Positions 3,517-60,800 of a stretch of 64,000 bases of DNA are shown in pieces. Below the pieces are notes generated by a model. The model worked only from the letters and a program-made list of their open reading frames with translations. It did no database searches and was not told the DNA's origin. How positions within the stretch are numbered: position 1 is the stretch's first letter; each line of letters opens with the position of its first letter. Origin of the DNA: Cloeon dipterum (lineage: Eukaryota; Arthropoda; Insecta; Ephemeroptera; Baetidae); contig NC_088789.1 in the NCBI RefSeq assembly GCF_949628265.1, forward strand, positions 21,383,883-21,447,882, in the 5' to 3' direction. Made by a program: the position numbers and the translations under genes.

Positions 3517-5059
3517 TCACCAATCTATAATTCGATCCTCACCACATATGTTATCTCCAATGGCAATGTAGAGATATCCTTTGTCCCCAAAATCAGAGCC
3601 CCACGAGTTGCGGATTATGTAGAAGGGAATGGCTGCAGTTCGGTCGTACCCGACAATCTGGACGGCGTGGTTGAGGCTGAACGGGTTGCCATCGCAGTTG
3701 AACTGGATCACGCCTCCTAAGTAGTTTTGCCAGTTTATGGCGTTCACAGCGACGGCCACAGGCCCGTGGGTGGCCACCACTCTCATCAACTCTTGCTCCT
3801 CACCCACATAGCTGCAATCAATAAAGAAATATTAGCAAAATATCGGGCAGAGCAAGTTTTTATTTGATTTTTAGATTTAAGCAGTTTAAATTAAGTTTTA
3901 ATTTAGTTTCAACAACAGGAAAATAATTTGGACCTTGAAGATTGTTAGTATTAGAAGGTAAAACTTTAAAACTTTTGAAAGAGAAACACATTTTTAAATT
4001 TTACAGGATATTAAAAAATTATTTCTAGAAACTTTTGTGAAAGAACTTGTGGGAAAATTGATTGAAAAGTGGAGAGAAAACATAGATAACAATAGGAAAA
4101 ATGCACTTACTTATTGCACGTAAAATTTGAAGTGATTCTGGTTCCAACTGTGTTTACACTGCGAAAAATGCGAGTAAGAAGTAAGAATAACACCTGTTAG
4201 ATGAAAATTCAGGAATTTTACTTGTCGGTCACTTTGCATTTGCCAGTCATGCCAGTGAAGGGGTACTGATTCTCAGTTACGAGAGCCACCTTTGAGGCAT
4301 TCATCCACTCTAGAAAACGGCATGTATCACCGCCAGCACAGCCTATGTTGCCATTTGTTGCACAATCCACCCCTTGTTGCACACTCAGCATCACCGATTT
4401 TCCTTTTTGCATGGCCTGCATCGCCTCGATCGTTTCAATAGTGCTGAAGGCCCAGCAAGCACCACAGGTTTTCTGATTTTTAATTGGAGTTAAGATTCCC
4501 TTCTTCCTCCTGCGAAGGATGAAAGGTAAATTATTTCAAATTTAAATCAATAAGACATTATTTATTATTACCAATCAACCACCATGGGTAGAGTGTTGTC
4601 GAAAATCACAGCCCTTTTTTCCCTATTGGAATGCTGGTGCTTTTGAATTAATTGCTCCCGATGTTCCTTCTTCATAAATTTGACTGACAGATCTGGATTT
4701 AGGTATGTCTGTATGAACTCCTCCTGGGACAAATCCGAAAATTTGGTCGCCCCGTACCGTGCTGCAAGAGGGTGGTCACTTGAGGAATTCAGGTCCTTTG
4801 ACCGACTCAATGAGTTCTGAAAAGGTTTGTTTGAGAAAAAATTATTTTTAATTAACAGTAGGTTGTTTACCAGATAGTAGCCAAACTTTCTTTGAAATTC
4901 AGGCGAATCCTTGGCATAGGAGCGGTTGCGGGCTGCCAGATACGAAATAAAAGACTGCTGCAGGTTGTTTGCTGGAGGTGCAATCTTAATGGGGATGCCC
5001 AGAAAGCAGAGGGAGAAAATTGCGACGTACGTCAAAGCTGTTTTCCAAGTGATCGCCAT
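3517..5059 (-). CDS. CTSO: Cathepsin O-like papain-family cysteine protease
   Basis: A lysosomal or secreted C1A protease. Five exons on the minus strand join in phase: 5059-4871, 4816-4572, 4509-4222, 4158-4111 and 3811-3517, giving about 354 residues. A hydrophobic signal segment (TYVAIFSLCFLGI) comes first, then an I29-type propeptide with GATKFSDLSQEEF. The mature enzyme begins near VDWRKKGILTPIKNQ. Catalytic Cys lies in TCGACWAFS, His in LNHAVQIVGYD and Asn in IIRNSWGSDFG. The LSVQQGVDC and INWQNYLGGVIQ blocks are more like cathepsin O than L, B or F. The CGACW motif has Ala where most relatives have Ser or Gly. Intron 1 is only 54 nt and stays open when read through, so a retained-intron form would add 18 residues. 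It faces the dioxygenase gene tail to tail. Confidence 0.93.
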
Positions 5060-9725: not shown

Positions 9726-10553
9726 TTAAAAGTCAAACACATCAACGTGGTCGCCGGACTTGAACTTGCCACTTTCAAGAAGCTGCATCAACTTTTCAAC
9801 CGTTTTCTCAGTTGTCAAATACTGGCCATTTGATCGCAAATCCTCGAAAGGCTTCCGCAGCTCATGGCATTGGAGGCCTGCAAGGATCTCGTCAGCCATG
9901 TCTGTCAGCACCGGTCCTGGAGAATAGTTGAGAACAGTAACAGTCGGCTCTTCCAGGGCAAGCACCTGCAGAGAGAGATTAAATTAAAACCAGATTTAGG
10001 TGGAAATGTGTTAAATTACTTTCAAAAACATTTCTCGGGTCGCTTTTCCGGTGCAGTACATGGAAAATCCCTGGAATGGCTTGATGCCGCAGAGCGATGT
10101 GATGTTGACCACTAGCCTCTTGTACGCGTCAGACTCAGGGAATGCTTGTAGGAACAAGGTGTTCAGCAGGATCATCGATCCGACGTTGAGATTGAAGTAC
10201 TTATTGATTTCGTCTAGGTCGTCAAAATCTTTGGCTGTGCGCTGCAAGTTTCCGAGAGAGCCGGCGTTGTGTACGACGACTGCTCTTTCATACTCCTCAG
10301 GATTTGCGGCTGCTGCGGAGAGGAAGTCCTTAAGAGTTTGCTCATCAGGCGACTCAAGATTCACAGAGAGAGTTTCGACCAGCACGTTCGGGCAGCACAG
10401 ACTTTTAGTTTCCTCCAAACCAGATTTTGACCTGGCTAACAGCACAAATTTGGATCCAGGCGCCACTTTGTTGGAAAACTCGACTGCGATGGTGCGGCCG
10501 ATGCCCTTGCTGGCGCCAGACACAATGACGAAACTCTTCTTATTCCACTCCAT
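9726..10553 (-). CDS. Sptr: Sepiapterin reductase
   Basis: An NADPH-dependent short-chain dehydrogenase that carries out the last reductions in tetrahydrobiopterin synthesis, in the cytosol. Two exons, 10553-10020 and 9965-9726, give about 257 residues, close to the usual 260. The cofactor-binding motif is SGASKGIGRTIAVEF, HNAGSLGNLQ follows the central strand, VNITSLCG carries the active-site Ser, and the catalytic pair lies in YCTGKATREMF (Tyr-x3-Lys). The C-terminal exon holds NYSPGPVLTDMADEI. The start ATG lies in the same exon as the end of the CCDC32 frame and precedes that frame's stop, so the two frames overlap by 14 nt. It is either translated from a shared two-cistron mRNA or from a start site inside the preceding coding exon or intron. 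Confidence 0.95.
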
Positions 10554-13353
10554 TTTGCTCCAGCTGGTCGGCTTTCAGCAACTCAACTAATTCTCCAGGA
10601 TTCAAAGGCTGTTCAGGAGCTACTCGGCGCACGACCTCACTCACTTCAATTGGCTGCTCCAAGTCAATCTATAAACGAGGAGTAAGGACAAATATAAATC
10701 CTTTCTACCGTTATTTGAGTTTATTTTAAGCTCTTGCGCTAAATCGTTCCAAATAAAACCACACATATATTTAATTCAAACGAGCGACTGTGTGAAGTGT
10801 GAATGAATATCTCATCTGAAGGAAAATACACGCGAACAAGAACATATTTCAAACAAGATGACAAGGAGGTCACTTGCGATATGTTTGAACAAGGTGCGAT
10901 AAAAGTTGATTTGCTACGTTGAATGCAGCATGTTTGCAATGAATTACGATAATTTCGAGATATATTTTCAGTATCGTCCACCATGTTTTCGTTTCATCCC
11001 ATAATAAACTTGTGAGTAACTTTTATTTCAATTGCCAATTTTTAAAAATTTCTTTAGAGCAATTCTTGACTGATTGTACGATAAATTTATATTTTTAATT
11101 ACGTGTTGAGGAACAATATTTAAGTTTTAATGGATGTCATTGTAGAGGGAAAAAATTCCAGTTCTTATTAACAGAACGGATCGGTTATGAAAGATATATT
11201 GAGACTTAAAATTCAATTGGCTGAATAATGAAGCGTAAAAGATACGCTCGTGAGAGGCCATAATGAAGACACAGTCACGGTTGAAAGACTATGTTTGACG
11301 GCGAATTGAAATCATCAAAGTTATGTTGCTCTTAAAGTACAGCAATATCAATTATTAAATAAATTGTCACGCACTCTATTAACATGATAGCCTTGGGCGT
11401 GTCAGTCAACTTGTCACGTGATTTTTTTAGATACGGTGCGCACTAAGAATGACACTCTTACTAACAAAAAAAATGCGCAAAGAATAATTTCAATAATAAT
11501 TCTGGAGTTTAAATTAATTTCTTTGAAAAACTCAATCTCTCCAAAATTTTAGCGTTATAAATAAAAATAATAAATCTCTTAAATTCTATCTGTAAAAAAC
11601 CTTGATAATCATCAGAGCATTTAAGCAGCGCATATTTTAGGTGAAAAAATGGATCATCATTTTCTTGCACAGAAAGTTTGATTTCATTTCAGTTTCTTAG
11701 CACTAAAATTAAACGGTAGAAATGGCGTGACACCAGCAAAACCTGTTTATTACATTAATTAAGTAGGCGGTTTTGTTAAATCTTGTTTCTCAGTGATTCA
11801 AGCATTTCTTATGTAACAAATTTCCAACATCTTCATAAATATAAGAATAAAAAAATAAAATAAATGATAAGAAAAATGACGCAATGGCTAAAATAAAATA
11901 AATACTAATATGCGCACTGACAAATTGCATAACACTTTAAAAAAAACAACAAAAATATTGACTTACATCAGGGGTGATGGTACTGCTCGTTATATCGCTG
12001 CTCTCAGAGAGGAATCTCCTCATGTAAGAGTCACGTGTGGTAGCCAAGCTTTGAATCAAGTCCTTCTTGCCCCTCTGCTGCTGCAGCTTTGACAGCTTTT
12101 TTTCTGAAAGCACGAGGGAGAGGAGATACTAAATAGTGTGTCCCTAAGAGTTACAAAACATCTATAGAGGACACACATACCCATACCCCACCGAGAAAGA
12201 GCAGCAAAAAAAAGGACGAAAAAAAACCAAGGCCGAATGGAGAAATTTATAGTTAGAGGAGGGAGTGGAGTGATTTTGACTTAAACTAATTAGGTTATTA
12301 CAGGGTGCGTACTGCGTGCGTCATTTTGCAATGTTTAGTGATTTCGCCATCCAGTCAATTCTGCGAGTTTTCGACTCAGCTATAAAAGCATAAAAAATAC
12401 TTATACAGACACAGACACAGACGATGGACTAATTCACACACAAGTCCACGCGTGTTACCGGTTAAATAAAATATTACTGATTTTTTACACAAACATCTAC
12501 GAGAAACGAGAAAATCCAGTGCAATGGATCTTTGAGTCACTGTGTAATTGGTAATTTAAGATAACTATTCAAGGTGCTAAACAAACAAATTGAGTACACT
12601 CGGAAAACATATATTATTATTATGATCGACGGATCAATATTTTGTTTCGGGCGATCATGCAGTTACTGCTTGTCACTTTATGCCATTGTTCACAAATTTT
12701 TTAAATAGACTGTAATTGATATACGTAGAACAATAAACAACTATACTATGTTACTACTCCTTATTGAATTTTAGCTTAAAATCTCACACGATTAGGTATA
12801 AGTTAAATTTTAAAAGACACCTCTTTATACAAAACCAACATATCTACACGTTTATTTTTAAAATGGAAAAATGAAAACAATAATTATATTATTAGTAATT
12901 TTAAATTCTAAATTTGTTACATATTGTTAAAGAATAATGTTATTTTTTAATTTGGTGAAAGGAAAACCTATTGGGGAAAAGGAGAAACAGGATAAAAATT
13001 TGTTTTGAGACTTTTTCCATGAAAATGCACAAAATGCATACATACATATTTATTAAGAGTGCACCAAGGGTCCTATATAATACAAATTAATTCACACTTT
13101 GTACACCAATAAGCCATGTATCATACGCACAATTTTTACGGCGAGAAGGTGATCAATAATTTATTTTTCATGATTTTACTGTTATCAGAGTTATTTTCTT
13201 ACCCAAACTAGCGAGGTACTCCTTTGAGTCGGGCAAAGGCTGGTGCACTGCTTTCAGATCAGCGAAGTTATCCTCGAACGATTGGTTGAATTCGTTAGGA
13301 ATCGTATCAGCGTCTCGGTCACAAGAGCCCCAGGCAGCCATTACGAAATGCAT
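10540..13353 (-). CDS. CCDC32: CCDC32 homologue, first cistron of the CCDC32-sepiapterin reductase locus
   Basis: Three exons on the minus strand, 13353-13203, 12103-11967 and 10668-10540, join in phase to about 138 residues. The recognised core is HQPLPDSKEYLASLEKKL, spanning the first splice; human CCDC32 has a nearly identical PLQDSEVYLASLEKKL. A Lys/Gln-rich helix (KLSKLQQQRGKKDLIQ) and an acidic, Pro-containing tail follow. Human CCDC32 assists assembly of the AP2 clathrin adaptor; that role here is inferred by homology. Two in-frame starts (13353 and 13341) lie 12 nt apart. The last coding exon continues without a break into the reductase: the TAA at 10542-10540 falls within the fifth reductase codon. 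All splice sites are GT-AG and phases agree (1, 0). Confidence 0.85.
10669..11966 (-). other. CCDC32 intron 2
   Basis: AT-rich intron. I see no exon, RNA gene or mobile element in it. It is the only non-exonic place close upstream where a separate reductase promoter could lie. Confidence 0.5.
12104..13202 (-). other. CCDC32 intron 1
   Basis: Intron of 1.1 kb, AT-rich, with an A-rich tract near 12205-12230. Nothing else is supported. Confidence 0.5.
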
Positions 13354-13920: not shown

Positions 13921-13992
13921 GGGCTCGGCCGGGATTTGAACCCGGGACCTCTCGCACCCTAAGCGAGAATCATACCCCTAGACCACCGAGCC
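13921..13992 (-). tRNA. tRNA-Pro (anticodon AGG)
   Basis: On the minus strand the 72-nt body starts GGCTCGG and ends CCGAGCC plus one discriminator base; the 7-bp acceptor stem pairs perfectly. The D-arm contains the A-box TGGTCTAGGGGTATG. The anticodon stem CTCGC/GCGAG closes the loop TTAGGGT (anticodon AGG, proline). The T-arm carries GGTTCAAATCC, a good B-box. There is no intron. A T-run (TTTTTT) just downstream fits a pol III terminator. The gene sits 100 bp from the left end of the giant inverted repeat. Confidence 0.95.
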
Positions 13993-14783
13993 GCGATGAA
14001 AGTACGCTGACGTTATTGATACTTTAAACAGGATTTCTTTTGCTGGAGGGGTAGAGGTAAATTTTGAGATGATGCTTTCTTTAGTTTTGTTGTATAGAGA
14101 TGTTTTTGGCCAAAATCGCTATCAAGTTTATTACACTAAAAAAAACTAGATTTTTTGGCCGATTTTTTGGTACCAATGAAACCCAAATGTTCGGAGCCGA
14201 AGTGGCCTAAATCGGCCGCCGAAAGTAGGGCACGCCCCCCAGTTGTGAATGACGTCACAAACGGCGCGCCCCCTATGTGAGGCGTGTGCGACAGAGGAGT
14301 AGTGAAGTGTTGTGAACCTACGGCCGACTGGGTTTCGGTTACCTGTGCACCTGTACCTGAACGTATTGGTTCCCCACCTGCGGATGATCGACCTTTGAGA
14401 CCTGGAGCAGCGGCTAGTGGGTGCAAGAGGTGCGTTTTTATGGTTTTTATGGAATTGCTTAGATCACGCTTGGCGAACACGTTTTTTAACTGCGAGCCGG
14501 GACGCGCTTTTCAATCGTAAATCAAAATTTTATGTTTTGAAACTGAAATTCGTGTTGATCCGTTGCAATCTGGAATTCCAAACAGGCTCATGACTGTTTC
14601 CTGTACTGAAATCTGCTAGGCTAAAGTCGAAATAAAAAACGTAAAGTGTTTTGGCTTGTAATTTTTGAAAGTTTGTTTACGTACATGCATACATTATGTA
14701 CATTTATATATGATACACGTTCACATTTTAGTAAAGTAGAATTAATTAATCTATCGATTTTACATAAGTGTTCTGATTTTCAG

Positions 14784-15591
14784 CACGCTCGCTGCAGTGT
14801 AATCGACGTCCTGTCGACATGGCTGACCGGACACACAAGTCCTTTGAGCCCCTATCTGGGCCGCCGTGGCGTGGCATCCGAAGGGCGGCTACCTGGTGTC
14901 CGCGGCCGGCAGCGAGCTGTACCTGGTGCGGTCTGAGACTGAACATTGGTGGTTGCTGCCAACGACAGCGGCCGAGCATCTGCTGTTGTGGTCGCCGAGC
15001 AGCCGATGCCTGCTGGCCGCATCCTCCTTCTTCCACTTGTGGAACGTGACCACCTGGACGGCCGAGCGGTGGACAGTTGCGCGAGGCTCCTCGATGGCAG
15101 CCGCCTTCAGCCCTGACTGCTGCCTGATGCTGTTTTTGGCGATGAGGCCGCGCGGCCTTTACCGTCTAGTTACGGAAGGAGACATGCTTTTCTTGTCAAG
15201 CGAACCCGTGTGACCACCTTGGCCTGGGTCGGGACCGTCCTAGCCGCTTTTCTGCACGGCGCAGTGCTGCGGTTCATGTTCACAGAACCAGAACTGATAC
15301 CCAACTCGACAAGACCTTAGTAAGTTGTTCACAATTCAGAAAATATTTTTTAAAAAAAAGATGTATTATTTTAGTGCAGAAACCGATTTTTATTTCATAG
15401 ATTAATTTTAATCCCCTGCTATCAATTTGTGTTTCAGTTTTTGCTTTGTAATTAACGGCAAGGATGGCATCTATCAACTTCTTCCCAGGCGCCAAGGGCG
15501 CCTCCTTGTTGGTGATCATTTGGTCTTCACGCATCCCCTTTCACCGCAGAAGAAGTCATCAGCAAAGCCAACAGATTCTGAGAGAGACTGA
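14784..15591 (+). pseudogene. AAAS: Aladin (AAAS) WD-repeat fragment, left-arm copy
   Basis: Aladin is a WD-repeat nucleoporin. One exon-like block (acceptor before 14784, donor after 15319) and a second (15438-15591) are visible. The frame with AWHPKGGYLVSAAGSELYLV, HLLLWSPSSRCLLAASSFFH and VTTWTAERWTVARGSSM matches the middle WD repeats of aladin, including the family's W-T-x-E-R-W. A following piece, TLAWVGTVLAAFLHGAVLRF, matches the next repeat but in another frame, and the start of the exon is in a third frame (GHTSPLSPY). At least two frameshifts therefore break it. N-terminal and C-terminal exons were not found. Kept introns argue for a DNA-level copy, not a retrocopy. The intact gene is not in this window. 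Confidence 0.7.
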
Positions 15592-16400
15592 AATGTGATT
15601 TTTTACATGCCATGTCACACTCTCACTAAAAGAAAGACTCATTGTGAAACTCTACACAGATGGAATTTTATTAGAAAGAGTTCTGGGTTTCCTTTGGATG
15701 GCAGTGTTTTTTAGTCTTTGTATGGTTGGGCCAGACGCTGTCGATTTCCTCCTCGGCTGGCTTTGTCGCTTCCACGGAGGCCTTTTGGGCACCAGAAAAT
15801 TGTGCATTGCCGCCCAACCGACAAGAGAGAGAAAGCCACGCTGCCCAAGGTGGCGCCCAGCCAGAAGACTACGAAGAACTACGCGAACGTGTGTCCCAGA
15901 CAGCCCATCTAGAGTCCCGTGGCCAGCGGGGAAAAAACGGGTCTCTGTCATTCAGAATATTAAGAATATCTCGAGTTATTATCCTCTTAGTCCTTGAGTT
16001 AAAGAGGGTTGAAAAATTTATATTTCAGTTCATGCAGTGCGAGGGAAATGAAGCAAGACTAAGATTCAGAATCTGCACATCTCTCTGAGTTAAGAGTCAC
16101 TTGTCAACACTTCCAGGTACAGAACCTGGATTATATTTTTAATATATAATCAAAGACTATATGGTTATTTGATTATCTTTTTTTAATAGGAAAAAACTGT
16201 ATTTTCATAATTATAATATAAATCATATTTTCTGCAGGGATATCCACTTGGTGTTTCCAAATTTGCACAGCGTTTCCTTTTGTTTTGAATCTCCGTAAAA
16301 GACAAATTTACATTATTCATTAATTAAGTTGCTCTTCTGATCCGCAATAAAAAATTACTTTGAATCTAAATAAAATCTGTATAAATGGGTTAATGAAGGT
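15592..16400 (+). other. Unassigned GC-rich tract in the left arm
   Basis: Open frames occur on both strands (for example 15726-16088 plus, 15652-15951 minus) but none has a recognisable domain, and they overlap each other. It may be more of the aladin locus or of another gene copied with it. The same content is mirrored at 18297-19105. Confidence 0.3.
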
Positions 16401-16479
16401 ATTAAAAATATTGTTTTATTTGCTACTGAATAGGGAGGAAATCAAATTAACCAGCTAATTAAGCATATATTTAGCTTTG

Positions 16480-17400
16480 AGTCAAAAAGACTCAGGGTTC
16501 GCCAATTTTGCATTACGCGAAAATGCATCACTGTTTTTTTTCTGCGCAAAAAAAACAGCTGTAAAGAAACACCAGATTTCCGCTGCTTTTTGCCAAATTT
16601 ACCCCGAAAAGGTCACATTTCACGCCAAAACGTCAGATATTTTGGGAAATTACGATTACTAATAAAATTGTCAGTCTTCTGTTGAAAATTGGCTTTTATA
16701 CTGATTTTCTGAAAATCTTTTTGGGTTATTCATCATGAGAATCAGACCTTCAGTAAAAAATAATGCATGCCTGCGCATGTTTCGGAAAAATGCGCAAAAT
16801 TAGAGAAAAATTGCAAAAAAATGTTTTCTACAAACGCAGTGGATTTTTCAGTAATTTGCGGGTTTTTGAAAACCCTGGAAAGACTATCAGACCAGGTAGA
16901 TCACCTTATCACATTATTTTCAAAGTTATTGGAATTCTATTCGTTGATGCGTAATTGCTTATTTATCTAATAATTACCATTTATCAATCAATAAAATTTT
17001 ATTGAACACAAATCGTGTACAATAATTACCATTTATAAACTAAACGGAAAAAAGCACCTTCAGAAATTAAAATTATCTATAGAAAATATTAAAATTTGGA
17101 GAAAAATGCGAAACATATACGCAAAATTGATGTAAAAAAACACAAAAAACAGTTTTTAGCGATGCAGTAGGATTTTTCCGAAAAAAATGCAGGTTTTAGC
17201 GAACCCCGATACAACACCGAAATTTAATATCCAAAAAATAAAAATCTAATGTTTTGAATATTCCGTAAAAATGCATGTAATACGCGAAATTCCGGAAAAA
17301 CCCCGCAAATTTGAGGAAAAACTGCAAAAAAATATTTTGTTGGTTTTGCCGTAAAGAGCCCTGAATAAACCCACTGCTTCGCAAAAAACTGCGGGGTTTT
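16480..17400. repeat. Degenerate AT-rich sub-repeats around the palindrome centre
   Basis: Several related units share runs such as GCGAAA, TTGCAAAAAAA, GGATTTTTC and TTTGCGGGTTTTT, near 16,500-16,600, 16,790-16,870, 17,100-17,210 and 17,270-17,400. They look like a diverged interspersed or tandem family. The same units are mirrored in the right arm to about 18,200. Confidence 0.45.
17307..17390. other. 84-bp unpaired spacer at the centre of the inverted repeat
   Basis: This is the only sequence between the two arms; it starts AAATTTGAGG and ends GCAAAAAACT. It resembles the neighbouring sub-repeats, so it is probably not foreign to the arms. Confidence 0.9.
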
Positions 17401-20400
17401 TCCGGAATTTCGCGTATTACATGCATTTTTACGGAATATTCAAAACATTAGATTTTTATTTTTTGGATATTAAATTTCGGTGTTGTATCGGGGTTCGCTA
17501 AAACCTGCATTTTTTTCGGAAAAATCCTACTGCATCGCTAAAAACTGTTTTTTGTGTTTTTTTACATCAATTTTGCGTATATGTTTCGCATTTTTCTCCA
17601 AATTTTAATATTTTCTATAGATAATTTTAATTTCTGAAGGTGCTTTTTTCCGTTTAGTTTATAAATGGTAATTATTGTACACGATTTGTGTTCAATAAAA
17701 TTTTATTGATTGATAAATGGTAATTATTAGATAAATAAGCAATTACGCATCAACGAATAGAATTCCAATAACTTTGAAAATAATGTGATAAGGTGATCTA
17801 CCTGGTCTGATAGTCTTTCCAGGGTTTTCAAAAACCCGCAAATTACTGAAAAATCCACTGCGTTTGTAGAAAACATTTTTTTGCAATTTTTCTCTAATTT
17901 TGCGCATTTTTCCGAAACATGCGCAGGCATGCATTATTTTTTACTGAAGGTCTGATTCTCATGATGAATAACCCAAAAAGATTTTCAGAAAATCAGTATA
18001 AAAGCCAATTTTCAACAGAAGACTGACAATTTTATTAGTAATCGTAATTTCCCAAAATATCTGACGTTTTGGCGTGAAATGTGACCTTTTCGGGGTAAAT
18101 TTGGCAAAAAGCAGCGGAAATCTGGTGTTTCTTTACAGCTGTTTTTTTTGCGCAGAAAAAAAACAGTGATGCATTTTCGCGTAATGCAAAATTGGCGAAC
18201 CCTGAGTCTTTTTGACTCAAAGCTAAATATATGCTTAATTAGCTGGTTAATTTGATTTCCTCCCTATTCAGTAGCAAATAAAACAATATTTTTAATACCT
18301 TCATTAACCCATTTATACAGATTTTATTTAGATTCAAAGTAATTTTTTATTGCGGATCAGAAGAGCAACTTAATTAATGAATAATGTAAATTTGTCTTTT
18401 ACGGAGATTCAAAACAAAAGGAAACGCTGTGCAAATTTGGAAACACCAAGTGGATATCCCTGCAGAAAATATGATTTATATTATAATTATGAAAATACAG
18501 TTTTTTCCTATTAAAAAAAGATAATCAAATAACCATATAGTCTTTGATTATATATTAAAAATATAATCCAGGTTCTGTACCTGGAAGTGTTGACAAGTGA
18601 CTCTTAACTCAGAGAGATGTGCAGATTCTGAATCTTAGTCTTGCTTCATTTCCCTCGCACTGCATGAACTGAAATATAAATTTTTCAACCCTCTTTAACT
18701 CAAGGACTAAGAGGATAATAACTCGAGATATTCTTAATATTCTGAATGACAGAGACCCGTTTTTTCCCCGCTGGCCACGGGACTCTAGATGGGCTGTCTG
18801 GGACACACGTTCGCGTAGTTCTTCGTAGTCTTCTGGCTGGGCGCCACCTTGGGCAGCGTGGCTTTCTCTCTCTTGTCGGTTGGGCGGCAATGCACAATTT
18901 TCTGGTGCCCAAAAGGCCTCCGTGGAAGCGACAAAGCCAGCCGAGGAGGAAATCGACAGCGTCTGGCCCAACCATACAAAGACTAAAAAACACTGCCATC
19001 CAAAGGAAACCCAGAACTCTTTCTAATAAAATTCCATCTGTGTAGAGTTTCACAATGAGTCTTTCTTTTAGTGAGAGTGTGACATGGCATGTAAAAAATC
19101 ACATTTCAGTCTCTCTCAGAATCTGTTGGCTTTGCTGATGACTTCTTCTGCGGTGAAAGGGGATGCGTGAAGACCAAATGATCACCAACAAGGAGGCGCC
19201 CTTGGCGCCTGGGAAGAAGTTGATAGATGCCATCCTTGCCGTTAATTACAAAGCAAAAACTGAAACACAAATTGATAGCAGGGGATTAAAATTAATCTAT
19301 GAAATAAAAATCGGTTTCTGCACTAAAATAATACATCTTTTTTTTAAAAAATATTTTCTGAATTGTGAACAACTTACTAAGGTCTTGTCGAGTTGGGTAT
19401 CAGTTCTGGTTCTGTGAACATGAACCGCAGCACTGCGCCGTGCAGAAAAGCGGCTAGGACGGTCCCGACCCAGGCCAAGGTGGTCACACGGGTTCGCTTG
19501 ACAAGAAAAGCATGTCTCCTTCCGTAACTAGACGGTAAAGGCCGCGCGGCCTCATCGCCAAAAACAGCATCAGGCAGCAGTCAGGGCTGAAGGCGGCTGC
19601 CATCGAGGAGCCTCGCGCAACTGTCCACCGCTCGGCCGTCCAGGTGGTCACGTTCCACAAGTGGAAGAAGGAGGATGCGGCCAGCAGGCATCGGCTGCTC
19701 GGCGACCACAACAGCAGATGCTCGGCCGCTGTCGTTGGCAGCAACCACCAATGTTCAGTCTCAGACCGCACCAGGTACAGCTCGCTGCCGGCCGCGGACA
19801 CCAGGTAGCCGCCCTTCGGATGCCACGCCACGGCGGCCCAGATAGGGGCTCAAAGGACTTGTGTGTCCGGTCAGCCATGTCGACAGGACGTCGATTACAC
19901 TGCAGCGAGCGTGCTGAAAATCAGAACACTTATGTAAAATCGATAGATTAATTAATTCTACTTTACTAAAATGTGAACGTGTATCATATATAAATGTACA
20001 TAATGTATGCATGTACGTAAACAAACTTTCAAAAATTACAAGCCAAAACACTTTACGTTTTTTATTTCGACTTTAGCCTAGCAGATTTCAGTACAGGAAA
20101 CAGTCATGAGCCTGTTTGGAATTCCAGATTGCAACGGATCAACACGAATTTCAGTTTCAAAACATAAAATTTTGATTTACGATTGAAAAGCGCGTCCCGG
20201 CTCGCAGTTAAAAAACGTGTTCGCCAAGCGTGATCTAAGCAATTCCATAAAAACCATAAAAACGCACCTCTTGCACCCACTAGCCGCTGCTCCAGGTCTC
20301 AAAGGTCGATCATCCGCAGGTGGGGAACCAATACGTTCAGGTACAGGTGCACAGGTAACCGAAACCCAGTCGGCCGTAGGTTCACAACACTTCACTACTC

Positions 20401-20605
20401 CTCTGTCGCACACGCCTCACATAGGGGGCGCGCCGTTTGTGACGTCATTCACAACTGGGGGGCGTGCCCTACTTTCGGCGGCCGATTTAGGCCACTTCGG
20501 CTCCGAACATTTGGGTTTCATTGGTACCAAAAAATCGGCCAAAAAATCTAGTTTTTTTTAGTGTAATAAACTTGATAGCGATTTTGGCCAAAAACATCTC
20601 TATAC
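17391..20605 (-). repeat. Right arm (3,215 bp) of the giant inverted repeat
   Basis: Reverse complement of 14092-17306. It carries the mirrored aladin fragment and all mirrored subfeatures. The flank beyond 20605 is unrelated to the flank before 14092, so the paired region ends cleanly on both sides. No target-site duplication was recognised at the outer ends. Confidence 0.95.
19106..19913 (-). pseudogene. AAAS: Aladin (AAAS) WD-repeat fragment, right-arm copy
   Basis: Mirror of the left-arm copy, with the same two exon-like blocks (19913-19378 and 19259-19106) and the same frame changes. The frame breaks therefore predate the duplication, or the second arm is an assembly copy of the first. 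Confidence 0.7.
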
Positions 20606-39000: not shown

Positions 39001-40745
39001 CCTTGTTGTTGAACATTACACCGTACATTATTAACTAATATTTGCGTTATCTAAAATATGTCAGAAATTCAGCAGCCAACACGATATTTCTATATTTCCG
39101 CCTGGTGAGAAGTAAACAACTCTGTCAAGATTCCCCCTCGCCGATTTTTAAATCGCAGGAGCCAACAATAACAACTGATAACAATAGTTATTTCTGGAAA
39201 GTGCAGTGCGCTGCATTTCCTCCGCCACCCCTGCTCCCGAGGAGGGTGCATTCATTGTGCGCGCAGACGGTGATATAGCTAGGTGGGTGCCTGTTATTTA
39301 TCGACAAGGTATAGATTCACTCTCACAAAAAGTCGGGTTCCCACAGGCGCTGCAGCGGCGGGGGGAGGCGGGTGCGTTTTACACAAAATGAGCTAATAAA
39401 ATCACTCTGTGCTTGTTGCTAGGGCCTCTAATTTATCTGTCACTAAACCAAAATTCGATCACGCAGTTGCTCCCACGCCTGAAGCGTGAAATCGTGAGCG
39501 CGATTATGATTTAAGCGCCCAAGGAGTGACGATTTTCACTTTTGCGGTTGTATTTTTAAGAAAGTGATAAGTTTTTATGATGACATTAATGCGCTTTTCT
39601 CACGTTGCACAAAGAAAGAAAATTTTCAAATTGAGCCCAAAGTCCAGTTGTTTTCGTCTCGGTTTATGGAGTCACGCAGAGCCGAGATTCAGATTCAGGG
39701 CGTTTGTTCGGTGCTTGAGTCAGCGCTCTTTACGTCGAGATAACACTCATATTATCGCGTCTGCCGGGATAATGATCAAGCAGTGCCGTCCGTCGGTGCG
39801 GCGGCGGCGGAAAGTGAGACACTTTTTTCCGCACCTCGGCGCATTTGCCGCAATTTGGCGGGGTCGATAATGCGGCCAACATCATTAATTTCATCCGCGG
39901 CTGATAACGCGATTAATACGCTTTCCTGAAGTGGGCGACGTTTTGACTCATCGCACTGTCTGACAATAAAACTCAAGTTTATTTCTTTCCGTAATTTGAG
40001 ATAATGTCACGGAAAGGTCGATTGTTTCGAATCGTTACTTCACACCGCTTGATTGCCACAAAATATAACAGCGATATCGTAACAACAATAATGCCACAAA
40101 GGCAGAGAGACGAGGAGAGTGGATTTTTAGAAAGGCTCGGTGACGGCCGAGCAAAGCTTTTTGCTCGATTTCTTGCCCAAATGATTATGACGAGCTGTAA
40201 TAATTCAACAAAGTCCTTCAATCCGTGCAATTTTATTTGCAAAGGAATTTATTGTTGCGAAATGATAACGATTCAAGCGGCAAAATCAACAGCGTGAAGC
40301 TCAGGGAATATAATCTCTCCATGAAAGACGATATATGTTTAATATTATTTAATTTCAATTTAATCTAAAATATAAAAATTGTCAAATAAACGTAAGAAGG
40401 GAATTTTAGCACATCCAGCTGTATTAATTTTGATTAATTTAATTTAGGAAAAATTTTAGTTAATTTTTAATAATTTAATCAAGACACGGAACAGGTAGTG
40501 CACTCACCATTGTAGTTGTCAAAGGCTGTGGGCACATACTCAGTGGGGAAGCCGTTTGTCGTGTAGCTGACCACGAGGGAGGTTTTGCCGACCGCACCGT
40601 CGCCGACCATCACGCACTTGACCTTTTGTCGGCAGTGCTCGAAGCCCTTGTCGGCGTTGTACTGCAGCAGGGTGGCCGTCAGGGCCTTGTCGCTGAAGGG
40701 CGGCATCGCGCGCGCTGCTCGGGGCCACGTCCCGCACCTTTCCAC
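24032..40745 (-). CDS. RhoU: RhoU/Wrch-type Rho family GTPase
   Basis: A Cdc42-related GTPase that shapes actin, adhesion and polarity. Four coding exons are 40745-40508 (ATG 40745, or 40706 for [14 protein letters not shown]), 32431-32373, 25249-25041 and 24281-24032, giving 238 or 251 residues. The P-loop is [20 protein letters not shown], switch I is [11 protein letters not shown], switch II is [18 protein letters not shown], and the base-recognition motif is GTQSDLR, with the TQSD of the RhoU/RhoV branch in place of TKx[21 protein letters not shown] is also branch-typical. The C terminus [10 protein letters not shown] has the double Cys of palmitoylated RhoU and no farnesyl CAAX box. The N-terminal extension lacks the Pro-rich SH3-binding tract of the mammalian protein, but a [12 protein letters not shown] stretch lies near the C terminus. 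Introns of about 8.1, 7.1 and 0.8 kb fill the locus. Confidence 0.93.
24282..25040 (-). other. RhoU intron 3
   Basis: AT-rich intron between the third and fourth coding exons; nothing else seen. Confidence 0.6.
26816..26827 (+). promoter_or_regulatory. Possible transcription start (initiator) inside RhoU intron 2
   Basis: TCAAGTCAGTCG contains the arthropod initiator core TCAGT. The identical 12-mer occurs upstream of the first GM2-activator-like gene (52301-52312). It lies 102 nt before the ATG of the candidate exon at 26929. Confidence 0.3.
26929..26991 (+). CDS. Candidate first coding exon, nested in RhoU intron 2
   Basis: ATG in a good context (ATCAAAATGC) opens 21 codons, [20 protein letters not shown] plus Gln, ending on a GTAATC donor in phase 0. 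A GC-rich leader and an initiator-like site lie just upstream. No family is recognised and no further exon was identified downstream on this strand. Confidence 0.3.
28527..28697 (+). CDS. Small intact ORF (56 aa), nested in RhoU intron 2
   Basis: One uninterrupted frame from ATG 28527 to TGA 28697. It begins [20 protein letters not shown], continues [20 protein letters not shown] and ends [12 protein letters not shown]. The composition is balanced and protein-like, with an amphipathic helix at the start. There is no signal peptide or transmembrane segment. I do not recognise the family. It could be a small single-exon gene, a retrocopy or chance. Confidence 0.35.
   Translation: MSGIKAEENKVLARLAASPDALVQAAKKEVFSAAFWPPENFNINKTNASFLKAKEP
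32432..40507 (-). other. RhoU intron 1 (8.1 kb)
   Basis: A long first intron with GC-richer islands near 33.0-33.5, 34.3-34.6, 35.0-35.3, 36.0-37.3, 38.1-38.8 and 39.2-40.2 kb among AT-rich DNA, suggesting enhancer clusters. A (CAG)n run lies at 38281-38295. Open frames here (for example 36998-37273) have no family match. The tract 35,640-35,830 repeats an ACGGTTTT-like motif several times. Confidence 0.45.
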
Positions 40746-41090
40746 GCACGGGCACGGCCTGCACTGAACTGAAAGCTCGATCTCCTCCGCTGCTCCACTC
40801 CGCTCGCTCTGCTCTGCTCAGCGTGTTGTCAGCCTCGCGCACCGCAACCGCAGCACTCCAACAGGCAGGCAGCTGATTCACTCACTCCGCTCGCTCCTCG
40901 CTCGCTCGGCCACTGGCAACGTCGGCCCCCACTCGCCCGCGTCTCGTGCCAACTTTTCAGATTCGGATGCTGTGAAGGAGCAACAGTCGACACGCATTCA
41001 CTGGCCCGCTTACTGCCGATTCGGCACTTTTCAAGTAGTGCACTCGCTGTGACGTTCAATATCCTATCGAGTCGGTTTTTAGTTGGCATG
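40746..41090 (-). promoter_or_regulatory. RhoU promoter and 5' leader
   Basis: A CpG- and GC-rich block directly upstream of the first coding exon, with many CGCTC/CTCGC repeats (for example CTCCGCTCGCTCCTCGCTCG near 40885-40904). No TATA box is seen. It marks the 5' end of the RhoU gene. Confidence 0.45.
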
Positions 41091-47300: not shown

Positions 47301-50300
47301 GCCCCTGCTTGTGCAGCAAATCCATTTCTCGCCTTTGTGCTTGCTCTCAGAAACTCGACACTTTTATTATTTTTTTTCGCTGCATGACTTTTCCTTCTGA
47401 CATCTGGTCATTCTCTCTTTGCTCTCGTACACCGTCGGATTTATAAAAATGCTTTGTTTCAGCTCTGGCTCAGAGAACTCCGACCATCTCTTACATATCC
47501 CAGGAGCAGATCAAAGACATTGGAGGCACAGCGGAGCTTGAATGCTCAGTGCAGTATGCTCAGGTAAACGCGTCCCTAAAATATAAAAGTCTAGACTACT
47601 CATTAAAACTTAAATTATTATCCTATGTTAAAATGATGTTGAAATCCCAAATTTACGTGCAAATTTATTCATTGAATAATATAGAAAAAAACGTTATAAT
47701 TATTGTTAAGATGTTAAATAGTAAAATAAACTGTAGAGAACAAATTATAATTTTTTTCCAAAACTTTCATTAGAAAATAAAAATAATTTAATTAATAAAA
47801 ATTAAAAATCCGAATACATTGTTCTGCTGCCTAGTCCTTCTAAAAATCAATTTCAAATAATAACAAATTTCAGGACTTTCCGGTGCTGTGGATGAAAGTG
47901 GACAAGCAGAGCGACTCCCTGCCCATTTCCACCGGCAGTACTCTGATTCTGAGGGACAGTCGGTTCTCCCTGCGTTTCGATTCGGCCAGCTCGACCTACA
48001 CCCTTCAGATCAAGGACATCCAGGAGACCGACGCGGGCATTTACCAGTGCCAGATCATTATCCAGCTCAACAACAAGGTCTCTGCCGACGTCGACCTGCT
48101 GGTGCGACAGCCGCCAGTCATCTCGGACAACTCGACAAGAGGCATCGTCGTCAAGGAGGGACAGAGTGTGCAGCTTGAGTGCTACGCCGGCGGCTTCCCG
48201 CTGCCCAAGGTCTCCTGGCGCAGAGAGGACAATGCCATCCTGCCCACTGGTGGCTCTATTTATAGGTAAATTAAAAAAATATGCTCAAGTTCAAATAAAT
48301 ATGAATGCTAAATTTAAGCTTGTTTTTGAAATTAAAATTTAACTCCTTATTTAATTTCCAGAGGAAACATTTTGAAGATCGCGCAGATCCAGAAGGAAGA
48401 CCGCGGCACCTACTACTGCGTGGCAGAAAATGGTGTCGGCAAGGGTGCCAGGAGAAACATTGCTGTGGAAGTGGAGTTCGCACCGGTCATCACCGTGGCT
48501 AGGCCGCGACTGGGCCAGGCGTTGCAATACGACATGGATTTGGAGTGTCACATTGAGGCCTATCCTCCCCCAGCTATCACCTGGAGCTACAAAGACGTCC
48601 AGCTCTCCTCCAACCAGCACTACGCGTAAGAAAAACCTTTATATTTTTATTCGCTGTACCGTCACTTGAATATTTCACGCGTAATATCAGCACTCAAGCT
48701 TTGTCGTAAAATGCTCAAAATAGCTGCATTAACCTGTTTAATCTTTAAAACCACTTGACTATATCAATGGAGAGCCAAGTGAAAGGAGGTTTGGCGTGGT
48801 AGGCTCCATAAAGAAGTAAATATAGAGTAGTAAAAACGTTCCACAATAAGATTAAGAAAAATGTTTGAAAATTCATAAGGTAATCGAACTGTAAATAAAT
48901 CTTTTGATAATATTCTAAACAGTTCCAGTTAATAATTTTTTCGAGATTTATAGCATCATTAGAGTGTGATAAAAGATTATAAAATGCTACAAATCCATTT
49001 TTGCAGTCGGCAGTGGCGTTGAAGACTCAATCACACATTAATTGTGATTTTTGTCTGAAAATTTTTTAAAAAAAATCATAATTTGTGGAAAACTGAGGCT
49101 ACAAGGCTGCAATCCATATATATATTTTCGTGTCAGACCACATAAAAGTTTGATCCTGATCAATCCATTGAGAGAAAAACTGCAAATTTTCTTAAAATCG
49201 TTCGTATTTGCCGCTATTTTTCTGTTCAAAAGCCTTTTGAGTCTAGTTTTCATTTTTACCCATTGAAAATAAATACAGTTTGCAGCTCCAGCCATGCAGA
49301 ACCATGAAGCTTCCAAAACAATTGATCAAGCTATGTTGTCTCAGTATTCAGAAATGTCCTTGAATTGCCCAATACAGCATCACTCAATTCGCCACCAACG
49401 ACGAGGTGACTGACACCACCCTGCGTGTCCTGTCGATCGAGAAGCGTCAGTACGGCGAGTACATCTGCAGAGCAGCCAACCAACTGGGCCAGACCGAAGC
49501 TCGAGTGCAACTGTTCGGTGAGTAGCCCTTTTTATCCTCTTATTGGCAGCTAGATTGAGTTACATCATTCTTTCGATGACGTGGGTCATTGACATAAACA
49601 AAATTTCGACTTGAAGCATCTTGGCGTGACCCACGCCACCTTTTTAGCAATGCTGTATAAATTATTTTTGTTGCATGGTTATTTGCATGTGTGAACTGAC
49701 AAATTGCAGAAACTACCACCCCATTGTGCCCTCCTGCTTGCGACCAGACCAGATACTCCGCGGGGGAGATCAGTGCAGCCATCAACTGCATGACTATTCT
49801 AGTTATGGCCGCTATTACCTACTTGTGGCGCCTGTAAATGTTCAGTGTGAGTTGTGCATTTTACAGAGTAGAAGCTAGTATTTTTTTAAGCATTGATATT
49901 GATACAAGCTCGAGCTAGTTTTTATTTTTGATCACTTGACAGCTGTCTATCCATTTCCCTGAGCACATGTCCTAACTCCTAACCTTTTACCAACTGCACC
50001 TCTTTTCCTTTTATTTTTTTTTCTTTTGTCTTATCAGGACAGTATTTTTAGTCTTTGTCTTTATTGGCATCAAAATTATTTTCTGTTCCATTTATTTTTA
50101 AAAAATCATTTATTAGATACATACAAATAAACAATTTAATTAATTTCCTCACATCGTCCTTATCACATTTGTTCCGATTTCACCACATTCCATGTATGAC
50201 TAGTCTTGTGATAGTGTAATAACTAGTTTGTTGTTCAACTATGAATTAGTTCTGGTGACAATGAACGAACTTGAAAACTGTAAACGCACTTGTGTGTACA

Positions 50301-57808: not shown

Positions 57809-60800
57809 TTAATTCCGTTCAGTGCAATTAGATGGAAAGCAGACGCATAATTTCCTGCGCAAAATTTGCATAATACACCGTCTAAATGTGGATCCGCAGA
57901 GAGAGTAAAGAATGAAATTGATGCTGAAATTCGTGTAGTAGAGGATCATGCAGAACTGCTGGACGCACCAGAGGACCATGGGAACCTGTCCGCCCCAGAA
58001 AGACGTGTATATTATTACATAGAAGCGGATCACGTAGCTGCAACAGAAGAGCGCGCGCATTACTCTCTTTAAATACAGACCGCACCCTCTATTCACCGCA
58101 TCACGTTTTATGGGTTCCTTGCTTGCTTCCTCTTAATTATTTTCTCAATGCTATACTTAATTCAGTGGGGCATGTTGTGAGCGAATTAATTTATTCGGAT
58201 TGTAGAAGGATACTAAAACCGTAATAACTATTTATAATTTAAATTTGAAAAGGTTGCAATTATTCTTTTTGATATTAATTTATTCCCAAGGGTGCAGAAG
58301 AATTGACCCAAATATATCAATTAAAATATTTGTGGGGTTATTTTTCCTATTTTGAATTTCTATAAAGCCTTTAAGCTTATGCAACCTGTGCAGCATCAGT
58401 GCGTTGCTGTTGCCTATTTATCTTTTGTTCACTATATTTTACCTCGGCATGTTCAAGACTAGAAAAGTGGTTGAGATCACCAGCAGCATCTTCGTAATGC
58501 CCCTTTGCGTTTGGACGGTCACTACATTGTTGTGAGATGAAAAACGCTGATCTGTTGATGAATTCATATTATTATGTTAGTTCAAAACTCCTTTTACAGC
58601 AATTTGGAGCTGATCATGCGAGAAAGCGAGGGGTCATTAATAAATACTCACTGCTGCTCCGGGAACCATCAGTGACAGTTCTGATTGCAGTGAGTCGCGT
58701 GTTGTTGGTCCTGACAGAGTGCAGAGAATGCTGCGATCCCAGATGCCGCCTTATTTGCTCCTGTGGGCAAGTGTTGGAAAACCGTTTTTATGAATGGGTC
58801 TCTCACAAGGCTTCAAAGACCCAAATAACAATGGATATAATATTTTTTAAAAATAAAATAAAGATAATTCGGCTTTGTCAAAAATCAATAAAGTTTGTTT
58901 AAAAGACAATGAACTTTTATTCCATAATTAATGCCTTTGTCATAGTAATAGAGAGGATTTCAGGACAAGAAATGGAAACTGGAAACCGGAATTCCGGATT
59001 GCTCCCGAAACTTCGGCAGAACAGGAAATATATTACCGGAAAAGGACACAAGATAAGAATTTTCTAAAAACCTCCTAACGTGATGAAAAATATTTTAAAC
59101 CGAAATATCCAGAATTTTTTATACGGCGGAACAGGACCGGAAAATTCAGGATTTCTTTTCGGAACAAGACAGTCTATGGGAACATTCAAACCTTTCCGAA
59201 ATTCTCTCTAATTGGTGCGGAAAAATATAAACAATTTTGTCAGTGAGGTTCCTTTACTAAAAAAAGGAGGCTTCAAATTAAGCTCATCAAAATCTACCCC
59301 AAAAAATCGAACAGTTTGATAAGAAAAGATCGAACCATTCAAAATTTACAGCATTAAAAGCTTTAGAAGAGTATTTAATCTAATTAAACCAGGCGACAGA
59401 TAAATGTGTGTGGGTTTTACATTGATATCGATTTATTCGAAACTAAAATCCTTCCCCGCGTTTTCAATTTGAACCAATTCGAAGACAAGTACATCCTTAG
59501 ATGCTTGGGCTTGGAGCTGAAGAGCAATCCTAATAAACTGCAATGAACATCAAACACAAGAGTGCTGTCTATGCGGAGACGATATAATGAAGAAAAACGC
59601 GGATAAGGGAAAGTTACCAAGGGGGTAGAAACAGTGACGGCCGTCTCGGCGGTGGACTCGTCGTTTTGGTCGTCGCCATGGAAGCGGTGATTGAAACGGA
59701 TGAGTTTGCGGGTGATGAGCGCGTTCATGAAGACGAGCAGCACCGAGGGGATGGCCAGCGTCAGCAGGCTGTCGACCAGCGTGATGATGCGCATCACCTC
59801 CGAGTACTCGGGCAGCATGTTGCATTCCGGCTTGCCGTCCTGCGCTGTGCTCAGCCCGGCTGTCAGCAGCGTGTGTGCGTTGAGCACGAGCGCCAGCAGC
59901 GTCAGCGCCAGCACGACGCTCTTGGCGCGCGCCACCGTGCACACGTGCGGACGCTGCAGCGGAAACTGGATCGCGATGAAGCGCTCCACGGTGAATGCAA
60001 CGGTCAGCCACACGCTCAGGAAGCTCGAGATGTGCGTCATGTACACGTACAGCTGGCACCACCCGCTCCTGGAACAGTTTAATTAAAAATTCCTCTTAAA
60101 ATTAGAAGGACAGTGATTTTTTGTGCAAATCGTCCAAATATTTTTTGTCAAGCAATTTTCTTGTCAATTAGTTTTACTTTTATAATTTCCCCTCTGGACA
60201 CTATATATTTTTCTTTGCAAACGATAATAATATAATCGAGCAATTCCACATGAGAGTTAGGAAGAAATTGAGCGAGATTTTGAGACGTTGGAAATGTTTA
60301 CTGAAACAAAATTTTCCTGAAAATGTCAAGTGAGAGGGGATGGAAGTCGATGCTGGAGGTCGAAAATAGTGATCGGTGTTTCCCAGTTTTGTATGGTATT
60401 AAAAATAACCGTTTTTTAAATCAAGATTTATATTTTTGTTTTTAAAAAACCTTGAAATAATGAAGCTTTCTTTTTCTAAAGTGTTAAATTAATTTAAAAA
60501 GTGCAAGTTTCCTTTGGTATAATTCAATTCTTTGAGAAAAAATAATGTATTAATAAGCCTTATAAACTATTGGTTAGTAAACAAAATTTAGCCTTAAAAA
60601 CTGACGAAAATTGTCCAATTGACAACTACAAAAATAATGTGAAATAGAAAACTGGCGTAAGAGATCATATATAGCTAAAACGTTGCTTTCCAGAAGCTTG
60701 AACCAATTTAAACGGCTTTGAACAATTTAAATTAAGACTCAAACTATTTAAAATTGCTTTACTCGTCTATTTTTGCAAACAATGTGACACAAAATAAATT

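Follow-up and report, generated by a model that had tools for sequence, protein, structure and literature searches.

The element treated here is a perfect palindrome in the mayfly Cloeon dipterum (Baetidae), and its closest precedents appear to be the extended inverted repeats of Galileo, the animal Pack-TIRs (TIR, terminal inverted repeat), of which Ssk-FB4 is one, and the hairpin RNA (hpRNA) loci of Drosophila. It lies in a 64,000-nucleotide stretch of DNA (the window, C4:21383883-21447882) from an assembly of 190.1 Mb in 10 contigs, five of which span 33-43 Mb; C1-C4 stand for contigs and L-numbers for related loci in the genome. This assembly differs from the one published in 2020, which was given as 180 Mb with 5% transposable elements and came from an inbred line sequenced with Illumina and Nanopore (PMC7250882).

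Galileo resembles the window element in that long inverted repeats occupy most of the element, and in that its TIRs grow by non-TIR sequence and other transposons which are present in both TIRs (PMC4168063, PMC3573991). In D. willistoni the TIRs are extended by tandem repeats, transposon insertions or non-TIR sequence, and transfer between TIRs has been proposed (PMC4168063), while in D. mojavensis the long TIRs are proposed to attract recombination and conversion (PMC3573991). The longest Galileo copy measures 9021 bp, its two TIRs are 4246 and 4680 bp long, and it has no transposase segment. Unlike the window element, Galileo has 7-8-bp duplications and a P-superfamily transposase; its arms are non-identical (e.g. 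95.2% and 97.5%), and the portions of these reports that we draw on describe no host-gene piece (PMC4168063, PMC3573991).

Host sequence carried and multiplied by a TIR transposon is what the window element has in common with animal Pack-TIRs, for which template switching is the proposed route of gene capture. These are defined as non-transposon sequence flanked by TIR elements, whereas here the host piece lies within both arms. Captured genes have been surveyed in 100 animal genomes, and the part of that study used here reports none in the insect reference genomes it covered and one family, Ssk-FB4, carried by FB4 in populations of D. melanogaster (PMC8277862). Tetris of D. virilis is likewise non-autonomous and of foldback structure, again with no transposase partner found. 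It has duplications of 8-9 bp (9-10 in rearranged copies) and TIR repeats that have given rise to satellite, which the window element does not, and the available sections of the report describe no host gene in it (PMC4079207). Finally, the hpRNA loci of Drosophila are inverted repeats with host-gene sequence whose arms can be nearly perfect, and their complementarity to targets ranges from one small interfering RNA (siRNA) up to extended regions. They have been shown by Dcr-2-dependent 21-nt siRNAs (PMC10317233), whereas the window element offers a prediction from sequence on a mobile carrier.

The components are known already, and what would be new is their combination, a host-gene piece in both arms of a perfect insect foldback element, of which we found no example in the open-licence literature, a result that does not prove absence. 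Transposon gene capture and hairpin RNA loci are mostly treated in separate research fields, and here captured host sequence lies in each arm of an exact inverted repeat.

The palindrome and its dispersed family

We read the palindrome as a non-autonomous foldback DNA transposon with identical arms, each holding a piece of the aladin and aquaporin-11-like genes, in which an arm was likely rewritten very recently, and we put the probability of this reading at roughly 0.6. The element would have been mobilised by a transposase acting in trans. The host piece and a miniature inverted-repeat transposable element (MITE) would have entered one arm and then reached the other, and the copying from arm to arm may have proceeded by gene conversion or template switching via a hairpin or cruciform, along the lines suggested for the extended inverted repeats of Galileo.

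When window position x is set against 34,697-x there are 0 mismatches and 0 indels over 3216 bp, from 14092/20605 to 17307/17390, and the arms (14092-17307 and 17390-20605) are each the exact reverse complement of the other, a match far beyond chance. The original prediction had given this pairing rule, which was borne out for every pair in the arms, and had described a near-perfect palindrome, which stands with corrected sizes: the arm is 3216 bp and not 3,215 (one pair more), and the spacer is 82 bp (17308-17389) and not 84. Across this spacer, mismatches fall at 30 of the 41 opposed positions, and beyond the outer edges 70-83 of every 100 positions fail to pair, as random sequence would. 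A repeat search agreed on the outer edges and placed the inner end at 17312/17385, across two mismatches (3221 nt, shown as 100%). The outermost pair, 14092 G and 20605 C, looks like a chance pairing in the flank, and the TA inside it on both sides is likely a target-site duplication, which leaves 14095-20602 (6508 bp) as the element itself. Most of it is occupied by the 3213-bp inverted arms around the 82-bp middle, as in a foldback, and a second copy of this centre was sought across the genome, where it matched here only. The features of the element are as follows.

14093-14094, no strand: TA, likely target-site duplication, left
14095-17307, plus strand: left arm, 3213 bp
14860-15931, plus strand: captured host DNA, left-arm copy (aladin, 3' part, in sense; gap; aquaporin-11-like gene, 3' end, in antisense)
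15488-15517, plus strand: 30 nt identical to the last aladin exon at the intact locus
15728-15757, plus strand: 30-nt exact match to the aquaporin-11-like gene, last exon
15833-15864, plus strand: 32-nt exact match to the aquaporin-11-like gene, last exon
16493-16877, plus strand: repeat X, nested hAT-like MITE, 385 bp, flanks AAAAGACT / GAAAGACT
16914-17235, plus strand: second dispersed repeat, pieces about 80-90% alike at C2:11970770, C2:23223896 and C3:649444
17308-17389, no strand: unpaired centre, 82 bp
17390-20602, minus strand: right arm, exact reverse complement of the left arm
17820-18204, minus strand: repeat X, mirrored copy in the right arm
18766-19837, minus strand: captured host DNA, right-arm copy
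20603-20604, no strand: TA, likely target-site duplication, right

Both outer edges of the palindrome fall on the termini of a dispersed family. A genome search with one arm gave at least 64 matches (the best 40 of 689 candidates being scored), and a search with the first 81 bp hit 24 places, the element's own two arms or ends being counted in each case. The 23-base terminal pattern, with up to 3 mismatches allowed, has 38 matches versus 1 with the reversed control. In most termini the sequence is T[A/G]GAC.TGTTTTTGGCC, in the window copy it is TAGAGATGTTTTTGGCC, and such dispersed copies with common termini are what a foldback transposon leaves. Of 8 elements compared at their ends, four (the window copy, L016, L024 and L058) have TA next to both. 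This TA is the sole sequence common to the two flanks of the window copy, which show neither the 7-8-bp duplication of Galileo and the P superfamily nor the target-site duplication of about 9 bp made by Mutator-type foldbacks. TA fits Tc1/mariner elements, and genes with the DDE_3 domain are present in the genome, none of them beside the family.

At four places on C1 (36868802, 36901030, 36922610 and 37072026) terminal matches have identical 30 bases outside the terminus, which points to duplication there of a larger unit, terminus included. Seen only by eye, a TGACGTCA motif and putative splice signals also lie in the terminal part; a promoter role was set aside, and a bacterial promoter scan is inapplicable.

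Relatives and the history of the arms

The related loci include short foldbacks and longer, rearranged copies. In L016 and L018 the sequence follows the arm up to about position 318 and then turns back at 260, L017 does so the reverse way round, and L058 has arm 2-68 joined to 62-11. Among the longer ones, L009 has arm 2-2014 forward followed by 2414-2289 and 1981-154 reversed, L011 has arm 10-2164 forward followed by 293-140 reversed, and L012 has arm 4-171 forward followed by 1206-660, 479-206, an insertion and 224-10, all reversed. The right termini are missing in L009 and L011. These three arrangements would fit internal deletion products of a long palindrome that lost its centre. The insertion in L012 (L012:3370-4825, C2:6.1 Mb) is about 1.45 kb of foreign sequence inside the right arm with many GATATATC-like repeats, as judged by eye.

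The nested MITE gives a sign of copying between the arms. Repeat X ends in CAGGG...CCCTG and has many relatives of about 70-76% identity (best 40 of 556 candidates scored). Its 8-bp flanks, AAAAGACT and GAAAGACT, are alike at 7 of 8 positions; of its relatives, L074 has an exact 8-bp flank pair (AGTCTATT) and L073 has no matching 8-bp pair. The CAGGG ends together with 8-bp duplications suggest a hAT-like element. The right-arm copy is at the mirrored position and is identical base for base, and since a single insertion is found at two mirrored places, one arm must have been copied into the other afterwards. The right arm of L009 retains the first 13 bases of repeat X with one change.

The comparison of arms used only those columns with letters in both L009 arms, the window copy and L011. 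The two arms of L009 differ at 37 of 606 sites in the outer part (arm 154-800) and at 6 of 1149 in the inner part (arm 801-1981; Fisher p 2.3e-12). No such contrast is seen between the left arm of L009 and the window copy (30/606 outer, 44/1149 inner, p 0.26), and the other arm differs from the window copy at 29/606 in the outer part. Trees of the outer part separate the two L009 arms (support 0.58-0.78), and those of the inner part group them (support 1.00). Arms that are outwardly as different as separate copies and inwardly near-identical suggest an old palindrome that was rehomogenised from its centre; the palindrome of L009 probably dates from around the time when L009 and the window copy split. 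Alternatively, the outer right arm of L009 may come from recombination with another copy.

For the window element itself, 3215 identical sites bound the divergence between arms at 0.093% (95%), while the window arm differs from L011 at 60 of 1755 sites (3.4%; 20/606 plus 40/1149). At equal rates, the arms would have been last equalised within about the latest 3% of the time since that split. It had been proposed earlier that the duplication was very recent or that gene conversion kept the arms identical. Both proposals gain support, from the zero differences set beside those 60 and from the centre-biased homogenisation in L009. With a perfect palindrome, a partly homogenised one and centre-deleted relatives in one genome, the upkeep of inverted-repeat identity becomes directly testable.

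The main rival within the transposon frame is a single snap-back, in which a broken or displaced strand would have folded at the central inverted repeat CCGGAAAAACCCCGCA...TGCGGGGTTTTTCCGG and the whole arm would have been copied in one step, with no older palindrome. One such event would cover both the full-length identity and the mirrored MITE, and the 3216 of 3216 perfect pairs up to the terminus, as well as a centre that is unique in the genome, are what it would leave. However, L009, L011 and L012 resemble deletion products from an older palindrome. Additionally, the outer arms of L009 differ from each other (37/606) as they do from the window copy (30 and 29 of 606), and two-armed elements thus likely predate the window copy. 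We hold the single snap-back as a tentative explanation, well short of an even chance.

Several observations weigh against the preferred reading of a foldback transposon with copying between its arms. L012 and L018 are without TA at either end, L009 and L017 yield one end only (with TA present at that end), and TA is at the expected place in 14 of 30 terminal rows, some of which have one end or one flank in common. TA is also only two bases and self-complementary, which makes it weak as evidence of duplication. When the joined flanks were searched in the genome each half matched this site only, and no empty site was found. The genome search for DDE_3 gave 49 matches, the nearest lying, by eye, about 54 kb from a terminal match. 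A Pfam search of 10 of the many reading frames within 1.5 kb of the termini found no catalytic transposase domain; 5 of the 10 had hits, which were FHA, BRCT, a BED zinc finger, a ubiquitin-like domain and TMEM154 (below its cut-off). The BED zinc finger also occurs in transposases. The outer-part supports in the L009 trees (0.58-0.78) are weak, and L010 holds arm 180-2004 in one orientation only, followed by a foreign end.

Near L010 (L010:4300-5600, C3:1.81 Mb) there are two copies that are 88% like arm 46-132 and have another terminus and other following sequence, and C3:1815794 and C3:1826268 mark two further short matches. The copies of the L010 region may be a sister family with the subterminal part in common.

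Captured host genes and the predicted hairpin RNA

The intact source of the captured piece is at C3:35097479-35098545, which is 77% identical to arm 769-1840 (window 14860-15931); the piece is 1.07 kb long. At this locus aladin, a nucleoporin gene, lies tail to tail with a convergent aquaporin-11-like gene. The joined intact aladin exons (L013, on C3) are 100% identical over their full length to the NCBI entry 'aladin [Cloeon dipterum]', and the joined aquaporin-11-like exons match aquaporin-11 in PDB at 3.9e-9, while Pfam gave no listing for them. A TIR element that carries non-transposon host sequence, while the parent stands intact at another place, follows the Pack-TIR pattern. By eye, the copied stretch starts inside aladin, includes an intron, crosses the gap and enters the last exon of the neighbour; with both intron and intergenic gap in it, it was taken up as DNA.

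In the arm, positions 757-1119 are an open frame. Its aladin part is recognised by the Pfam model of the aladin propeller at 2.5e-14, below the whole-protein cut-off of that model, and it matches PDB aladin chains at 2.2e-8 at best. A protein role for the piece was considered and is thought unlikely, given that its aladin frame departs from that of the parent and meets an early stop (by eye). The aladin piece has 12 matches in its own genome (2 in the window, the parent, 4 in L009 and 1 each in L010, L011, L012, L014 and L015). L014 and L015 (C3:7.22-7.23 Mb) are about 72-77% like the window arm over the matched stretches, and as these older relatives hold the piece, the capture predates the young copies. 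A 992-bp metagenome contig encodes a 90-amino-acid protein that shares 95.6% identity with the window copy and 78.3% with the parent, so the captured version is also present in other material.

If the element were transcribed from end to end, the RNA would form a hairpin with a 3.2-kb stem, which Dicer could then process into siRNAs. The long double-stranded hairpin, foreseen in the original prediction for read-through RNA, holds as a sequence-based prediction, with the central 258 nt predicted to fold into a stem at -149 kcal/mol versus a shuffle mean of -45. As in hpRNA loci, the inverted-repeat arms match host genes that could be targets, sharing 32 exact 21-mers with the parent locus, spread over stretches of 30, 30 and 32 nt, and a few of the predicted siRNAs would be identical to the aladin and aquaporin-11-like messenger RNAs. 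These 21-mers, two Dicer-dimerisation domain matches in the genome and the known range of hpRNA complementarity make silencing of either gene possible. Taken further, the element could be a mobile hairpin RNA gene with self-homogenising arms, each insertion giving double-stranded RNA that silences both parents. We consider this a doubtful proposal; if true, it would be a mobile route to new endogenous RNA interference loci in a mayfly.

In a different view the window copy would be a hairpin RNA locus under selection, whose siRNAs control aladin or the aquaporin-11-like gene. The host coding sequence inverted in both arms, the 32 exact parent 21-mers and the two Dicer-dimerisation matches would all suit such a locus. 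On the other hand, the aladin piece is dispersed (the 12 matches above), family termini bound the window copy, and the piece and its parent are only 77% identical. The window copy diverges from L011 to a similar extent before the host piece (20/606) and in the part mostly within it (40/1149), with no sign of constraint, and the hairpin is itself a prediction. Selection for silencing is accordingly improbable as the explanation of the palindrome.

Assembly and surrounding sequence

Long inverted repeats with short centres are difficult to assemble and to polish, and the evidence here is the assembled sequence alone, but an artefact, either a foldback of the assembly or two differing arms made identical by polishing, is very improbable, because a foldback would mirror the flanks too, whereas the flanks are unlike each other and found nowhere else, both edges sit at termini of the dispersed family, and the arm differences of L009 survive in the same assembly. 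Of the three origins that had been listed at the outset, recency and conversion are therefore retained and the assembly folding back on itself is disfavoured; the transposon family and the host-gene pieces had been missed.

A tRNA-Pro (AGG) gene lies at window 13921-13992, 102 bp left of the element. Targeting of insertion to transfer RNA genes was rejected, as ARAGORN found no such gene in 30 of 30 related loci, and the neighbour is treated as a coincidence. A phage collection was searched as well and gave no match. Elsewhere the window holds pieces of genes for a papain-type protease (3520-3831), a short-chain dehydrogenase (10014-10574), a Ras-type GTPase (40482-40817), an immunoglobulin-domain protein (47844-48266) and a rhodopsin-family receptor (59420-60082).

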